This document shows, one piece after another, positions 19,126-24,087 of a DNA stretch of 35,536 bases. Under the pieces are notes generated by a model, which saw nothing but the letters and a program-made list of their open reading frames with translations, was not told the DNA's origin and did no database searches. Numbering within the stretch: the stretch's first letter is position 1; the number at the start of each line of letters is the position of its first letter. A program made the position numbers and the translations under genes. The DNA comes from a virus, in IMG/VR virus record IMGVR_UViG_3300034104_001666, positions 1 through 35,536 of that record; one strand, 5' to 3'.

Positions 19126-19155
19126 TAATAGATGAAAGAGAAAGAGGGCAAGGAT

Positions 19156-19479
19156 ATGAATACAGAAGAATATAACGGTTGGACAAATCGTGAAACCTGG
19201 GCAGCTAAGTTGTGGATTGATAATGATCAAGCTCTTTATGAAATCGCCAGAGAGTACGCACAGGAAGAGATTCAAGGTCACGATGAGGGCGAAGAGATTA
19301 ACGCCTACCATCTAGGCCAGACCTTCAAGGGGTGGATTGAAGATGATCTACTTACTTTAGAGAATATTACAGGGAATCAAGCTCTCTTTAATATGCTTAC
19401 CGATATTGGATCACTCTATCGCGTGGACTGGCGCGAGATAGCTCAGGCCTTTATTGACGATGAGAAAGAGGGAGAATAA
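19156..19479 (+). CDS. Conserved phage protein with NGWTNRETW motif
   Basis: This encodes 107 residues from ATG at 19156. An upstream ATG at 19132 has a poorer ribosome site, while GGCAAGG precedes the chosen one. The motif YNGWTNRETWAAKLWIDND and a C-terminal SLYRVDWREIAQAFIDD are typical of a small family common in phages and plasmids (I recall it as DUF7249). No function is established to my knowledge. It is the longest of the early small genes and follows a structured gap, so it may be separately regulated. Confidence 0.75.
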   Translation: MNTEEYNGWTNRETWAAKLWIDNDQALYEIAREYAQEEIQGHDEGEEINAYHLGQTFKGWIEDDLLTLENITGNQALFNMLTDIGSLYRVDWREIAQAFIDDEKEGE

Positions 19480-19887: not shown

Positions 19888-20102
19888 GTGAGATCATCGC
19901 GGTAAAAACAAAAACCTGTGTAGTCTGTGATCAATATGAGATATGGAGCTTGGATCGCCAAGCGGTAGAGAGCTGGCAAGAGGGAGAGCTGATTCAGAAC
20001 GCCTTCCCTGATATGTCTATGAGCGATAGAGAGCTGCTTATATCTGGCACGCACCCTGCGTGCTGGGATAAATTATTCCCAGGAGAGGAAGAGGAAGAAT
20101 GA
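19884..20102 (+). CDS. Conserved phage zinc-binding protein
   Basis: This encodes 72 residues with CVVC at 12-15 and a distal HPAC (about 57-60), a split zinc site. The middle holds ELIQNAFPDMSMSDRELLIS and GTHPACWDKLFPG, a pattern I recall from many phages without a known function. It ends in a run of Glu whose codons carry the next ribosome site. Among the better conserved of the early small proteins. Confidence 0.7.
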   Translation: MSEIIAVKTKTCVVCDQYEIWSLDRQAVESWQEGELIQNAFPDMSMSDRELLISGTHPACWDKLFPGEEEEE

Positions 20103-20341
20103 ATTTTCACCCGAAGGAGTCACCCCTATCCCTACTCTATGAGGTGGTAGAGAGAGAAGGCAATACGGTATGGGCAGGGGAGAACCCTTCCGAAGCTATC
20201 AAGGCGTATCGATCTCAGCCGATAGACACACGCCTGCTGGTATCAGGGTGGGAGGGCAACGAGCCTGAAGATATGCCAGTCGGCCAGCCCTTAGATATTA
20301 CCGAGCTTATCGGTGCGGTGAGAGGGGGCTGGATATGGTAA
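20099..20341 (+). CDS. Hypothetical early protein
   Basis: This encodes 80 residues, MNFHPKESPLSLLYEVVERE and so on. The layout of a strand, a helix (ENPSEAIKAYR) and a strand (DTRLLVSGWEG) looks like a small alpha/beta domain. It overlaps both neighbours by a few bases and has AGGAAGAGGAAGA before its ATG. No family assigned. Confidence 0.65.
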   Translation: MNFHPKESPLSLLYEVVEREGNTVWAGENPSEAIKAYRSQPIDTRLLVSGWEGNEPEDMPVGQPLDITELIGAVRGGWIW

Positions 20342-20487: not shown

Positions 20488-20555
20488 TGGAATGGTTATT
20501 CTTTACCCTTATTGCGGTATGCTTTGCCGTCTGGATGGAAAGGAATAAATGGTGA
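20487..20555 (+). CDS. Single-pass membrane peptide
   Basis: This encodes 22 residues, MEWLFFTLIAVCFAVWMERN and so on, nearly all hydrophobic and then basic. GAGAGCGAGGG lies upstream. Its tail codons carry GGAAAGG for the next gene. It could be a regulator of membrane proteins, but may be only a leader peptide. Confidence 0.4.
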   Translation: MEWLFFTLIAVCFAVWMERNKW

Positions 20556-20845
20556 GCGAAAATAACGAGGCTGGCCTCAGTCAAGCCATTCACTACCGTA
20601 ACTATAGAAGGGCCAGAGATAGGGCGAGAACTCGCATAGCTCAGGCATACCCAGAGCTATACCTGGAATATCTACAGGAGGAGAGAGCAAACGATGAAAC
20701 CACTGGTAAAACTTGGGTTGGTATTGACCGTGACAATGGTAGTGCTATCACTATTGAATCATACAAAGATGCCATCGAAGGAAGTATTGATCCCGATAAT
20801 GACGGAGAGAACGAAGGCAACGATGAAGGAGAAGAGAGAGAATGA
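20549..20845 (+). CDS. Basic N-terminal, acidic C-terminal phage protein; 3' half overprinted
   Basis: This encodes 98 residues from ATG at 20549 with GGAAAGG upstream. Residues 15-49 (YRNYRRARDRARTRIAQAYP and LYLEYLQEER) form a basic helical segment of a kind seen in many actinobacterial phage proteins. The C-terminal half is acidic (DNDGENEGNDEGEERE). From 20694 on, the same bases also code the transglycosylase-like gene in another frame. Its own stop overlaps the start of a third gene at 20842. Function unknown. Confidence 0.65.
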   Translation: MVSENNEAGLSQAIHYRNYRRARDRARTRIAQAYPELYLEYLQEERANDETTGKTWVGIDRDNGSAITIESYKDAIEGSIDPDNDGENEGNDEGEERE

Positions 20846-21128
20846 GAGAATCGTTAGAGAATATAGTCGCGCTCTCGGATATTCGAGAAAGGAAGTTGCG
20901 TGCCTTGTCACCCTATGGACCCGTGAAAGTAGGCTTGACCACTTGGCCAGACCACGCGACTCCCAAGGACGACCCATTAGTTCAGCTTTTGGAATTGCTC
21001 AACTCCTTAGAGAACGCAGTGGAGAACCTGAACTACAAGTCCTTCACGGCCTACGATACATTGGCCACCGCTACGGAGAATCTGCGTGCCGTGCTTTACG
21101 ACACAGTGACCGGCGAGGGTGGTACTGA
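20694..21128 (+). CDS. Membrane-anchored lytic transglycosylase/lysozyme-like protein
   Basis: This encodes 144 residues with a strong ribosome site (AGGAGGAGAGAG) nine bases before the ATG. An N-terminal hydrophobic segment (residues 5-21) resembles a membrane anchor or uncleaved signal. The domain from about residue 55 has the goose-lysozyme/SLT pattern: YSRKEVACLVTLWTRESRLD (probable catalytic Glu78), SSAFGIAQ at 97-103, GLRYIGHRYG, and a C-terminal GWY. Such enzymes cut peptidoglycan glycan strands. It overlaps the gene before it by 152 bases and almost fully covers the gene at 20842-21135 in a third frame. Its place in an early-type operon, away from the holins, is odd. Confidence 0.75.
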   Translation: MKPLVKLGLVLTVTMVVLSLLNHTKMPSKEVLIPIMTERTKATMKEKRENERIVREYSRALGYSRKEVACLVTLWTRESRLDHLARPRDSQGRPISSAFGIAQLLRERSGEPELQVLHGLRYIGHRYGESACRALRHSDRRGWY

Positions 21129-21135
21129 TGACTGA
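20842..21135 (+). CDS. Helical hypothetical protein, overprinted on the transglycosylase gene
   Basis: This encodes 97 residues from ATG at 20842, which overlaps the previous stop (ATGA) and is preceded by GAAGGAGAAGAG. The chain looks protein-like: a helix, a SPYGPVKVGLTTWPD turn region, then amphipathic helices (LLELLNSLENAVENLNYKSF). Bases 20842-21128 are also read in another frame as the catalytic part of the lysozyme-like protein. Its codons are ordinary for this operon, which argues for a real gene. No family is recognised. It could still be chance. Confidence 0.55.
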   Translation: MRESLENIVALSDIRERKLRALSPYGPVKVGLTTWPDHATPKDDPLVQLLELLNSLENAVENLNYKSFTAYDTLATATENLRAVLYDTVTGEGGTDD

Positions 21136-21598
21136 TTTCTATAAGGGTGATACCTTCAGATCATCGGTGGATGATACTTGGACTACACCACCTAAGTTCT
21201 TTGCTGATATCAATGGAGAGTTTGGGTTCACCTTAGATGCTGCTGCGCTAAAGGGTTCGACCTTGGTACCGAGTAATTGGTATGGTCCAGATCACGATGA
21301 CCCTGAGCGTAGAGATGCACTCGTAAGGGATTGGACTGAGGATGCGAATGGTGGTCCGGTATGGCTGAACCCACCTTATGGGCGAGGTATCAATGCTTGG
21401 GTAGCCAAGGCTTATGAAGAGAGCAAGAAGGGTACGACGGTGGTATGTCTAGTGCCAGCTCGTACTGATACCAACTGGTGGTGGGATAATTGTATGCACC
21501 AAGAGGTGCGCTTTATTAAAGGCCGTCTTAAGTTTGGTGATGGCAAGAACTCAGCTCCATTTCCTAGTGCATTGGTGGTAATGAATGATTGTCTTTGA
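21128..21598 (+). CDS. Phage N6-adenine DNA methyltransferase (Dam-like)
   Basis: This encodes 156 residues from ATG at 21128, with GAGGGTGG upstream. An in-frame GTG at 21119 is less likely. DTWTTPPKFFADINGEFGFT at the N-terminus, LDAAA, WLNPPYGRGI (the catalytic NPPY motif IV) and VCLVPARTDTNWWWDNC are characteristic of the phage Dam/DNA N-6-adenine methyltransferase family. It would methylate adenine in phage DNA, probably to escape host restriction. There is no partner nuclease beside it. It overlaps the upstream genes and the cytosine methyltransferase downstream by 14 bases. Confidence 0.9.
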   Translation: MTDFYKGDTFRSSVDDTWTTPPKFFADINGEFGFTLDAAALKGSTLVPSNWYGPDHDDPERRDALVRDWTEDANGGPVWLNPPYGRGINAWVAKAYEESKKGTTVVCLVPARTDTNWWWDNCMHQEVRFIKGRLKFGDGKNSAPFPSALVVMNDCL

Positions 21599-22214
21599 TT
21601 TCTTTTCAGGTACAGGATCATCAACGCAAGCGTTCAAGGATGCAGGTCATACTGTTATTACCTTTGAGCTAGATGATTTCTTTGAGGCAACTGAACACGC
21701 TAACGTCTTTGACCTTAACGCTGCAGATTTGATTGCTAAGTATGGTCAGCCTGACTTTGTATGGGCAAGCCCACCTTGTACCGCCTTTAGCGTGGCCTCG
21801 ATGGGCCACCATTGGGGCGGTGGAGCTAAGGCATATCAGCCTAAGACTGAGGCAGCAAGGGTAAGCCAAGACCTTGTGGCACACACACGCCAGCTTATCG
21901 CTGACCTTAACCCTACTAAGGGCTGGCTGATGGAGAACCCAAGAGGTATGCTACGTAAGCTACCGGTAGTCGAAGGGTTGCCACGCACGACAGTTACCTA
22001 TTGTACCTATGGCGATGGTCGTATGAAACCTACAGATCTGTGGGGAGTAGTACCTAACTGGACACCACGCACGATGTGTAAGAATGGTATGCCTTGCCAC
22101 GAAGCTGCGCCAAGAGGGGCTAAGACTGGTACTCAAGGGCTTAAGGGAGCAAGAGAAAGATCGCGTGTTCCTTACGAATTAGGGGAAGAAATCTTAGCAG
22201 CTCTGCTACAATAA
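21585..22214 (+). CDS. C5-cytosine DNA methyltransferase
   Basis: This encodes 209 residues. Motif I is DFFSGTGSSTQAF at the N-terminus, motif IV is ASPPCTAFS with the catalytic Cys, motif VI is the phage-type ENPRG, and a TVTYCTYG block follows. A short target-recognition region with several Cys/His lies before the C-terminal ELGEEILAALLQ. The protein is smaller than bacterial enzymes but typical for phage solitary methyltransferases. It is the last gene of the rightward operon, directly before the terminator. Likely role: protection of phage DNA or a change of the modification pattern. Confidence 0.88.
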   Translation: MIVFDFFSGTGSSTQAFKDAGHTVITFELDDFFEATEHANVFDLNAADLIAKYGQPDFVWASPPCTAFSVASMGHHWGGGAKAYQPKTEAARVSQDLVAHTRQLIADLNPTKGWLMENPRGMLRKLPVVEGLPRTTVTYCTYGDGRMKPTDLWGVVPNWTPRTMCKNGMPCHEAAPRGAKTGTQGLKGARERSRVPYELGEEILAALLQ

Positions 22215-22280: not shown

Positions 22281-22874
22281 TCACTGGTAACTTTCAAATA
22301 TGTGTAGCCCTAGTTTTGGCAATACACAATTACGCAACACCTGCCGCTTATTAGGTAGCTTATAGTTACTGAGATCAAAGCCGTGCAATTCTGACAACTG
22401 AGGAATCTGAGCTGAACGAATCTTATCCTTTTCAAAGTCAGCGTCTGGTATTTCATAGTTAGCCCAGAAGTAATGACGCTGCATATCCTTGGTAGGTTTA
22501 ATAAGTGGCTCATAATATGGCTTAACATTTTCCACTACCCAGCCACACTTAGCGTTAGCTTGTAAGAATAGAATTTCTTGATAGAGTTTCATATCAGGAT
22601 AGACAGGTTCTACGCCACGATAACGGACCCCTATGTTTTGTCTAAAACTACTATGGCTTTGACACGGTGGGCTAGACCAAATAAAATCAAACTCAGTAAA
22701 ATGATTAGCTAAATACTCGTGAGCATCACCCACCACAAGCGTATCGTTTGGGTATAAGTCAGCATAGATAGCTGCGATAGCCGGATCATATTCAACAGCA
22801 GTTACCTGATGTTCGCTTGACCATAACTTACGATTTCCTCCTATGCCTGCATACAGATTGAGGACCTTCATCAT
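22281..22874 (-). CDS. Second C5-cytosine DNA methyltransferase
   Basis: This encodes 197 residues; a second ATG at 22871 is better spaced from AAGGAG. Motif I is LNLYAGIGGNRKLW, followed by an acidic AVEYDP (motif II), DAHEYL (motif III), WSSPPCQSHS (motif IV, catalytic Cys) and WVVENVKPYY (motif VI, ENV). It differs strongly from the cytosine enzyme on the other strand, so the two are unlikely to be a recent duplication. It is the last gene of the leftward replication operon. It would modify a different target sequence, broadening protection from host restriction. Confidence 0.88.
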   Translation of the reverse strand: MMKVLNLYAGIGGNRKLWSSEHQVTAVEYDPAIAAIYADLYPNDTLVVGDAHEYLANHFTEFDFIWSSPPCQSHSSFRQNIGVRYRGVEPVYPDMKLYQEILFLQANAKCGWVVENVKPYYEPLIKPTKDMQRHYFWANYEIPDADFEKDKIRSAQIPQLSELHGFDLSNYKLPNKRQVLRNCVLPKLGLHIFESYQ

Positions 22875-23060: not shown

Positions 23061-23440
23061 AACTTGATAGCCTCACTTATATCGAGATAACCTACTAACT
23101 TATCTACCTTATAACGGTTAGAGAACTCACTTGTAGCTGGCATACGCTGCGTTACCCAGTTGGGTTCAGGTACATCCATCAAGTCAAAGGAATAGATACC
23201 TTGTGGAGTAGAGTTAATATAGAAGGGTAGTAGGTCACGCTCTGCTGACTGAGTGATGAGCTTCTTATACTTCATCTCTTCTATAAGTAGCGTATCATAA
23301 TGGGTATAGCGACACTTCAACTCTATGTAGTGACCAGCCTTGACGCTGATACAATCGAAGGCATCGTATACACCAGGTGACTTCTCAAGATCGGGATAGA
23401 GCGAAGCTTTAAGCGTGTCAAATAATTCCTGCTCCTTCAT
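23057..23440 (-). CDS. PD-(D/E)XK-like nuclease candidate
   Basis: This encodes 127 residues from ATG at 23440, which shares bases with the sigma-factor stop. A TTG three codons upstream is unlikely. The block YDAFDCISVKAGHYIELKCR has an Asp, about ten residues, then E-L-K, matching the ExK core of PD-(D/E)XK nucleases. The rest is strand and helix with no other motif. A role in DNA repair, recombination or host DNA breakdown fits the replication operon. Only the core motif supports this. Confidence 0.55.
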   Translation of the reverse strand: MKEQELFDTLKASLYPDLEKSPGVYDAFDCISVKAGHYIELKCRYTHYDTLLIEEMKYKKLITQSAERDLLPFYINSTPQGIYSFDLMDVPEPNWVTQRMPATSEFSNRYKVDKLVGYLDISEAIKL

Positions 23441-24087
23441 TACTTCCAAGGTGTCTGCCCACCCAACTCTTCGTTGAGAGAGCGCAACGCGTTATTACAT
23501 TTACGTTCTGCAGTAGTAGCGTGACACCCAAGTACGCCACCTATCTGTGCAAGCGTGAGCGATTCGTGATAGCGCAGTACCAATACATCTCTCTCTTCAA
23601 CTTCAAGCTTAAGATAAGCACCCTTGATATCTATAAGGGTAGCAAGTAGGTTGCCACCTTCTGCTGGAGATGATGAACCTTTAGGTTGTCCATCGCGGAT
23701 CATCTCTTGTGCCTGCTCAAGTACCGTGCCATCTATGACTGAGGCAATAACAAAGGGTAGTAACTGTGCAAGGGTAGCGCCCTGATAGAACGCTTCATCA
23801 CTTGTCTGATAACCAGACTGTGCGGCCTTCTCCCTACGACAGTAACGTTCAGCGTGACGCAACATCTGCCACGCTATCTTCTGCTCGTTATGTTTGCGCT
23901 TCTCAAAGTCAGGCTCATTGAGTAGTTCATTGGTCCATTCAGCTCGCTTGGCGGCCCAGAGCAGACACTCCTGCTTTACATCGTTCTTCTCTACAAACTT
24001 CTGATACCTTCGGTATGCGGTGTTAGCTACCGATGGAGCTATGTCGTAGATAGATGGATGTATTTCAGTCACGAGGCCAGTTTCCAT
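23440..24087 (-). CDS. Sigma-70-family RNA polymerase sigma factor
   Basis: This encodes 215 residues. A region-2-like segment lies near residues 33-95 (DVKQECLLWAAKRAEW and further helices to ERYCRREKAA). The C-terminal region 4 is clear: LEVEERDVLVLRYHESLTLA, then a helix-turn-helix (IGGVLGCHATTAERKCNNAL). A long variable linker lies between. The region-2 fit is weaker than region 4, so a region-4-only regulator is an alternative. It could direct host RNA polymerase to phage promoters, such as the shared element before the leftward operons. Overlaps the gene upstream by 23 bases. Confidence 0.75.
   Translation of the reverse strand: METGLVTEIHPSIYDIAPSVANTAYRRYQKFVEKNDVKQECLLWAAKRAEWTNELLNEPDFEKRKHNEQKIAWQMLRHAERYCRREKAAQSGYQTSDEAFYQGATLAQLLPFVIASVIDGTVLEQAQEMIRDGQPKGSSSPAEGGNLLATLIDIKGAYLKLEVEERDVLVLRYHESLTLAQIGGVLGCHATTAERKCNNALRSLNEELGGQTPWK

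Follow-up and report, generated by a model that had tools for sequence, protein, structure and literature searches.

Can one stretch of phage DNA be read in three frames to give three proteins, an enzyme among them, and which of the frames came first? The question is raised by three overlapping open reading frames, P1, P2 and P3, on the plus strand of a virus contig of 35,536 bases, here called the window. P1 (20549-20845, 98 aa), P2 (20694-21128, 144 aa, 435 bases) and P3 (20842-21135, 97 aa, in the +1 frame of P2) are found in both the ORF list and the sequence at the positions given in the initial annotation, with the same overlaps of 152 bases between P1 and P2 (20694-20845) and 287 bases between P2 and P3 (20842-21128). 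All 435 bases of P2 are also read in P1 or P3, and P3 lies within P2 save for its last 7 bases. The TGA stop of P1 lies on the ATG start of P3, inside P2, so that the four bases ATGA (20842-20845), already pointed out as the join of P1 and P3, are common to all three frames. A Shine-Dalgarno-like site precedes P1, P2 and P3, in agreement with the ribosome site claimed for each start; that of P2 is the purine-rich AGGAGGAG (20677-20684, plus strand, within P1) and that of P3 is AAGGAGA (20826-20832, plus strand, within both P1 and P2). At the other end, the P2 stop shares one base with the start, at 21128 as annotated, of a gene for a Dam-type DNA N6-adenine methyltransferase (21128-21598, plus strand; Pfam Dam, E 3e-24) in the sequence TGATG (21126-21130), and the P3 stop (21133-21135) is located inside this gene, P3 ending 8 bases into it. 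Our answer, held with high confidence, is that this is a three-gene, three-frame overlap from which three proteins would be made, P2 being the older frame and P3 having been overprinted on it in one phage lineage.

When all three translations were compared with phage protein sets, a check proposed in the initial annotation, PHROG transglycosylases were matched by P2 and nothing significant was found for P1 or P3. The PHROG matches of P2 comprise transglycosylase families at E 1e-8 and weaker (PHROG 12661 at E 1e-8) and an unnamed PHROG at E 2e-9. The NCBIfam Apf C-terminal-like domain was matched at E 6e-9 with 36.2 bits, below the cut-off of 40, and a relative of P2 (P0004, 42% identical) scored 57.1 bits against the same profile and cut-off. 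The motifs from which the enzyme had first been recognised (WTRES, SAFGIAQ, RYIGHRYG and GWY) are all present in the translation. In 50 aligned relatives Glu78, which sits in a conserved (T/S)xE(S) motif, is invariant, as are Cys70 and Cys132. The AlphaFold2 model (pLDDT 85) consists of an N-terminal helix (residues 3-21), hydrophobic and corresponding to the membrane anchor of the initial annotation, and a helical domain. Its top five structural alignments are all to lysozymes or transglycosylases, namely phi29 gp13, the phi29 gp13 lysozyme domain, phiKZ gp144, a digestive lysozyme and a phage lytic transglycosidase, with Z from 7.0 to 4.5 (all below 8); phi29 gp13 aligned with Z 7.0 and rmsd 3.2 over 98 residues, and phiKZ gp144 with Z 5.8. 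On these matches and the model, P2 is a predicted membrane-anchored, lysozyme-like lytic transglycosylase. Met44 of P2 (20823-20825) is largely conserved, and in relatives its codon is preceded by an AAGG-like site; an internal start at this position may give an anchorless transglycosylase, and Met44 may equally be kept by the ribosome site of P3.

Searching IMG/VR with single-sequence patterns yielded 354 loci for P2, 70 for P3 and 543 for P1, and a profile yielded at least 530 loci for P3; every locus found through P1 or P3 also has P2. The codon alignment contains 167 distinct relatives of P2, 45-100% identical. Some starts of P1 were picked too far downstream by the script (giving versions of 47-49 aa), which leaves the overlap tests unaffected.

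Outside the overlap, the N-terminal region of P1 is conserved, basic and helical (RNYRRARDRALxRL..YP..Y..LL..E...DE..GK.W). Its tail, over the 5' end of P2, is fast-evolving, acidic or Asn/Gly-rich and of low complexity. P1 had no significant match in PHROGs, Pfam, NCBIfam and other described families, and tblastn with two of its members against 50,697 phage records revealed none. Over residues 1-45 of P2 the P1 frame has no stop in 164 of 164 relatives, the unused frame having 2-10. When single changes in this overlap were classed as doubly silent (SS), altering one of the two proteins (SN and NS) or silent in neither (NN), rates of 0.025 for SN, 0.023 for NS and 0.006 for NN were obtained, and no change created a stop. 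The NN rate amounts to 0.24-0.26 of SN and NS over residues 1-46 of P2, and to 0.34-0.40 over residues 8-38; since it is about one quarter of the rates of changes altering a single protein, both frames are constrained, while the comparison with SS is weak for this overlap because only 3-4 doubly silent changes were observed.

What the tail of P1 is kept for is less clear-cut. It is possible, if rather doubtful, that it has no function as a protein and acts as a carrier taking ribosomes across the start of P2 to P3, P1 proper being the N-terminal domain, a reading which is compatible with the three-gene explanation and refines it. It would account for a fast-evolving, low-complexity tail next to a strongly conserved N-terminal region, and for two loci (L083:3818-4036 and L086:5828-5992) that lack the conserved N-terminal domain of P1 and keep a short P1-frame ORF over the start of P2, ending in GTGA at the start of P3. 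The tail is nevertheless not free to change its amino acids, NN being 0.34 (0.25-0.42) of NS over residues 8-38 of P2. As L083 and L086 keep the frame of the tail without the P1 N-terminus, bringing ribosomes to P3 is suggested as one job of the tail.

The junction of P1 and P3 is conserved without exception: in each of the 164 loci for which the sequence suffices, P1 ends at a TGA that overlaps the P3 start (NTGA), GTGA in 155 cases and ATGA in 9. The NTGA is found at three registers of the alignment, and since it is kept at these different places the stop of P1 and the start of P3 have shifted together. A Shine-Dalgarno sequence of at least 4 bases is located before P3 in 156 of 158 relatives and before P2 in 154 of 158, compared with 82 of 474 control positions. 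We infer from these features that the frames are translated, with reinitiation as the route to P3. Ribosomes would initiate P1 at its own ribosome site, while separate ribosomes would initiate P2 inside P1 at AGGAGGAG, independently of P1. The tail of P1 would carry the former across the 5' end of P2 to stop exactly at the start of P3, where, having ended P1 at the TGA, they would back up one base and reinitiate on GTG or ATG, aided by the Shine-Dalgarno sequence. The output of P3 would be proportional to that of P1, since P3 would be made by ribosomes finishing P1.

A different route to P3, programmed -1 frameshifting at the end of P1 with P3 as the end of a P1-P3 fusion, is improbable. Relative to P1, P3 does lie in the -1 frame, and purines abound at the junction, but in the window the P3 frame is closed by a TGA six codons ahead of the ATG, so that slippage would have little space, and no slippery heptamer was seen by eye. 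Frameshifting would moreover need neither a start overlapping the P1 stop nor a Shine-Dalgarno sequence, and these are conserved at three registers.

It would be simpler still if P2 were the only gene, P1 and P3 being chance open frames produced by its composition or conservation. For one sequence alone this serves well enough: the open frames of P1 and P3 are then not beyond chance, the P3 frame staying free of stops in 15% of synonymous shuffles of P2 made within the sequence and in 21% of those made with pooled usage (the conservative variant), and the P1 frame in about 51%. What places the overlap far beyond chance is that the frames are open across relatives, not the openness in a single sequence. 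Besides the 164 of 164 for P1, the P3 frame over the catalytic domain has no stop in 166 of 166 relatives, and it is open in all of 19 representatives below 80% nucleotide identity and in 70 of 70 distinct loci that were picked by P2 patterns alone and not for P3; over the P2/P3 region the unused +2 frame has 4-13 stops in the 166 relatives.

To this can be added the substitution pattern, for which single changes between the members of 82 independent pairs of relatives were classed by what they do to P2 and to P3. The rates were 0.103 for doubly silent changes (SS), 0.0226 for those silent in P2 only (SN), 0.0101 for those silent in P3 only (NS) and 0.0026 for NN, giving SN/SS = 0.22 (0.18-0.28) and NS/SS = 0.10. 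Compared with doubly silent changes, those altering P3 only are suppressed 4.5-fold and those altering P2 only 10-fold, and P2-silent changes that make a stop in P3 numbered zero in the 82 pairs. Among the controls, the fictive +2 frame of P2 had an SN/SS of 1.17, and fictive frames of the non-overlapped P1 N-terminus and of the gene at 20099-20341 ranged from 0.84 to 1.16; the Dam control, with 8 pairs only, yielded 0.63 and 1.15, and its intervals were wide. The initial annotation had proposed comparing synonymous and non-synonymous rates per frame, and the ratio of 0.22 for P2/P3 stands against 0.84-1.17 in the controls, a result that was stable when kappa was varied from 1.5 to 4 and was also obtained with deeper pairs and with loci selected through P2 alone. 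The rates indicate that P2 and P3 are both under purifying selection.

Chance frames thus have next to no probability left: the stops missing from every relative do occur in sister transglycosylases, which are similar proteins, changes that alter P3 and are silent in P2 are suppressed where those in a fictive frame are not, and the NTGA junction and the Shine-Dalgarno sequence before P3 are kept throughout or nearly so. Just as remote is an RNA structure or regulatory DNA element constraining silent sites in place of a second protein, for although such elements also lower silent variation, the pattern tracks second-frame codon positions (SS 4.5 times the P2-only-silent rate, no stop created) and covers the whole 287 bases, paired with the start/stop junction and the Shine-Dalgarno sequence. 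Together, the absence of stops, the coupling of start to stop and the substitution rates of each frame uphold the original reading of the three frames as genes and show that all three are real and kept in their frames by selection.

In one respect the initial annotation has to be turned round. It had the enzyme overprinted on two other genes, whereas P2 is widespread, with relatives in 96 phage records, and P1 and P3 have no relatives in phage isolates. Relatives of P2 without a P3 gene occur in Streptomyces, Microbacterium and Planktophila phages. In the Streptomyces phages the +1 frames are partly open through G+C-rich composition, and the A+T-richer Planktophila-type clade was for this reason taken as the outgroup for stop counts. 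This sister group consists of transglycosylases close to that of the phage LanE43-AprF5 (record ct2KA10), whose host is Planktophila (PMC10202952). Its P3 frame contains 1-7 stops over 93 codons in 54 of 54 rows, and over the last 88 codons stops are found in 46 of 48 distinct sequences. At four-fold sites of P2 the mean entropy is 0.71 in the P3 clade versus 1.40 in the sister clade (p = 2e-5), and one third of the four-fold columns are nearly fixed in the P3 clade, none in the sister clade. Searches of 15 sister virus records for P1 and P3 at other places gave nothing for P1, here without a positive control, and for P3 only a stop-broken echo inside the same enzyme gene. As P2 has relatives lacking P3, the sister frame is broken and P3 is absent from phage isolates, the sequences indicate that the frame of the enzyme is the more ancient one and that P3 was written over it later; the tail of P1 was probably also laid over the older enzyme. 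In the tree of the enzyme a strongly supported clade (100/99) unites 14 of the 16 P3 carriers; the other two, the divergent L169 and L177, branch just outside the point at which the Planktophila group splits off, and a single P3 clade is not rejected (p-AU 0.167). Either one gain of P3, or one gain together with one loss in the sister clade, is a possible history. With the sister clade lacking P3 as the state before, how a gene came to be born within an enzyme can be followed codon by codon.

P3 itself has a variable polar N-terminus followed by a conserved SPYGPVxxGLTT segment and a predicted helix of 46 residues (45-90), the only confident part of the model (pLDDT about 95). In the family, positions 49, 56, 63, 70, 77 and 84, spaced as a heptad, are 99% hydrophobic or Ala. 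Nothing significant was found for P3 in PHROGs, Pfam, NCBIfam, PDB sequences, BFVD or PDB folds, the best PDB profile match being a helix at E 0.05 over 26 residues, and tblastn with two members against the 50,697 phage records gave no match. By these searches P3 is a new family with at least 530 relatives in IMG/VR and none in phage isolates. From the model we infer a small soluble coiled-coil protein, the helix suggesting self-association or the binding of a partner. Our best guess is a cytoplasmic regulator or an oligomeric accessory protein made together with P1. A more specific and rather unlikely proposal is that P3 acts on the very enzyme whose gene it overlaps, for example as a cytoplasmic inhibitor, chaperone or export partner keeping the transglycosylase harmless until needed; if so, enzyme and controller would be inseparable by recombination and their proportion fixed by the translation coupled to P1. 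Longer versions of P3 (117-124 aa) with a zinc-ribbon-like end (CxEC..., CLECLE) were seen at L208:3451-3822, L030:6134-6484 and L152:4693-5046, perhaps fusions with the next gene.

Around the locus, a gene with a DUF7249 domain (19132-19479, plus strand, Pfam E 1.5e-10) belongs to the same series of small plus-strand genes. A cytosine methylase-like gene (21585-22214, plus strand, Pfam) lies directly downstream of the Dam gene and is faced by an ORF on the opposite strand (22281-22874, minus strand) in which a similar SPPCQ motif was seen by eye. Further on there is a sigma-factor-like gene (23440-24087, minus strand, PHROG E 1e-10), found in Planktophila phages as well (PMC10202952).

The overlap is maintained over relatives down to about 45-55% enzyme identity. 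Long out-of-frame overlaps have rarely been proved in tailed phages. To our knowledge, common gene callers restrict same-strand overlap to far below the lengths seen here, and would for that reason drop either the enzyme or both its partners; the lack of a significant match of P3 and P1 to any PHROGs, Pfam or NCBIfam family fits such a limit.

No description of this locus was found in the literature searched, and it is best set beside the systems it resembles. In sequence and predicted fold P2 is related to lytic transglycosylases of actinophages (Apf C-terminal-like, NF052397; PHROG 12661 and 15428), but in phiCAM, Endor1, phiScoe56, Muntaha, NootNoot, Shocker and ct2KA10 the transglycosylase gene is non-overlapped and no relative of P3 was found. 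The closest isolates are the Planktophila phages LanE43AprE7/F5 (PMC10202952; ct2KA10, OX376640/OX376641), with 48% identity in the terminase and 42% in the transglycosylase; they differ in having an unrelated WhiB-like ORF upstream of the transglycosylase, neither P1 nor P3, and 4 stops in the P3 frame. The terminase identity, together with the relatives of the enzyme in actinophages, makes a freshwater actinobacterium the likely host. A genome scan with the P2 profile gave a single match, in Leifsonia poae, too distant (32%) for the host to be named from it.

Among tailed phages, one gene contained out of frame in another is also seen in the embedded spanins Rz/Rz1 of lambda and T7, a lysis pair in which the contained gene is usually in the +1 frame (PMC6139136). 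Those proteins have a membrane anchor and a lipoprotein signal and serve phages of Gram-negative hosts, whereas P3 carries no such signal and P2 is a predicted muralytic enzyme and not an i-spanin. P2/P3 as an embedded spanin was accordingly rejected, P3 having neither a hydrophobic N-terminus nor a lipobox Cys and P2 being a predicted transglycosylase.

The nearest likeness in layout is the A-K-C region of phiX174 and G4 (Microviridae). There the stop of A and the start of C meet in a short overlap, and K spans this join in the remaining frame; K is thereby covered by the genes on either side, and a few bases serve all three frames, as here. K shares its 5' end with the 3' end of A, and K and E, like extensions of A and C, are of de novo origin (PMC8227390). 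The two cases differ in age and setting: K, in the middle, is young and codes a small protein, while in the window the central position belongs to the old enzyme and the young frames flank it. In addition, phiX174/G4 are single-stranded DNA phages of 5.4 kb and the present one is a tailed phage with about 40 kb of double-stranded DNA, and no relation in sequence is expected. Both overprinting and the coupling of stop to start are already known; what sets this locus apart is that the ages are reversed relative to A-K-C, that it belongs to a tailed phage, and that an enzyme is wholly double-coded.
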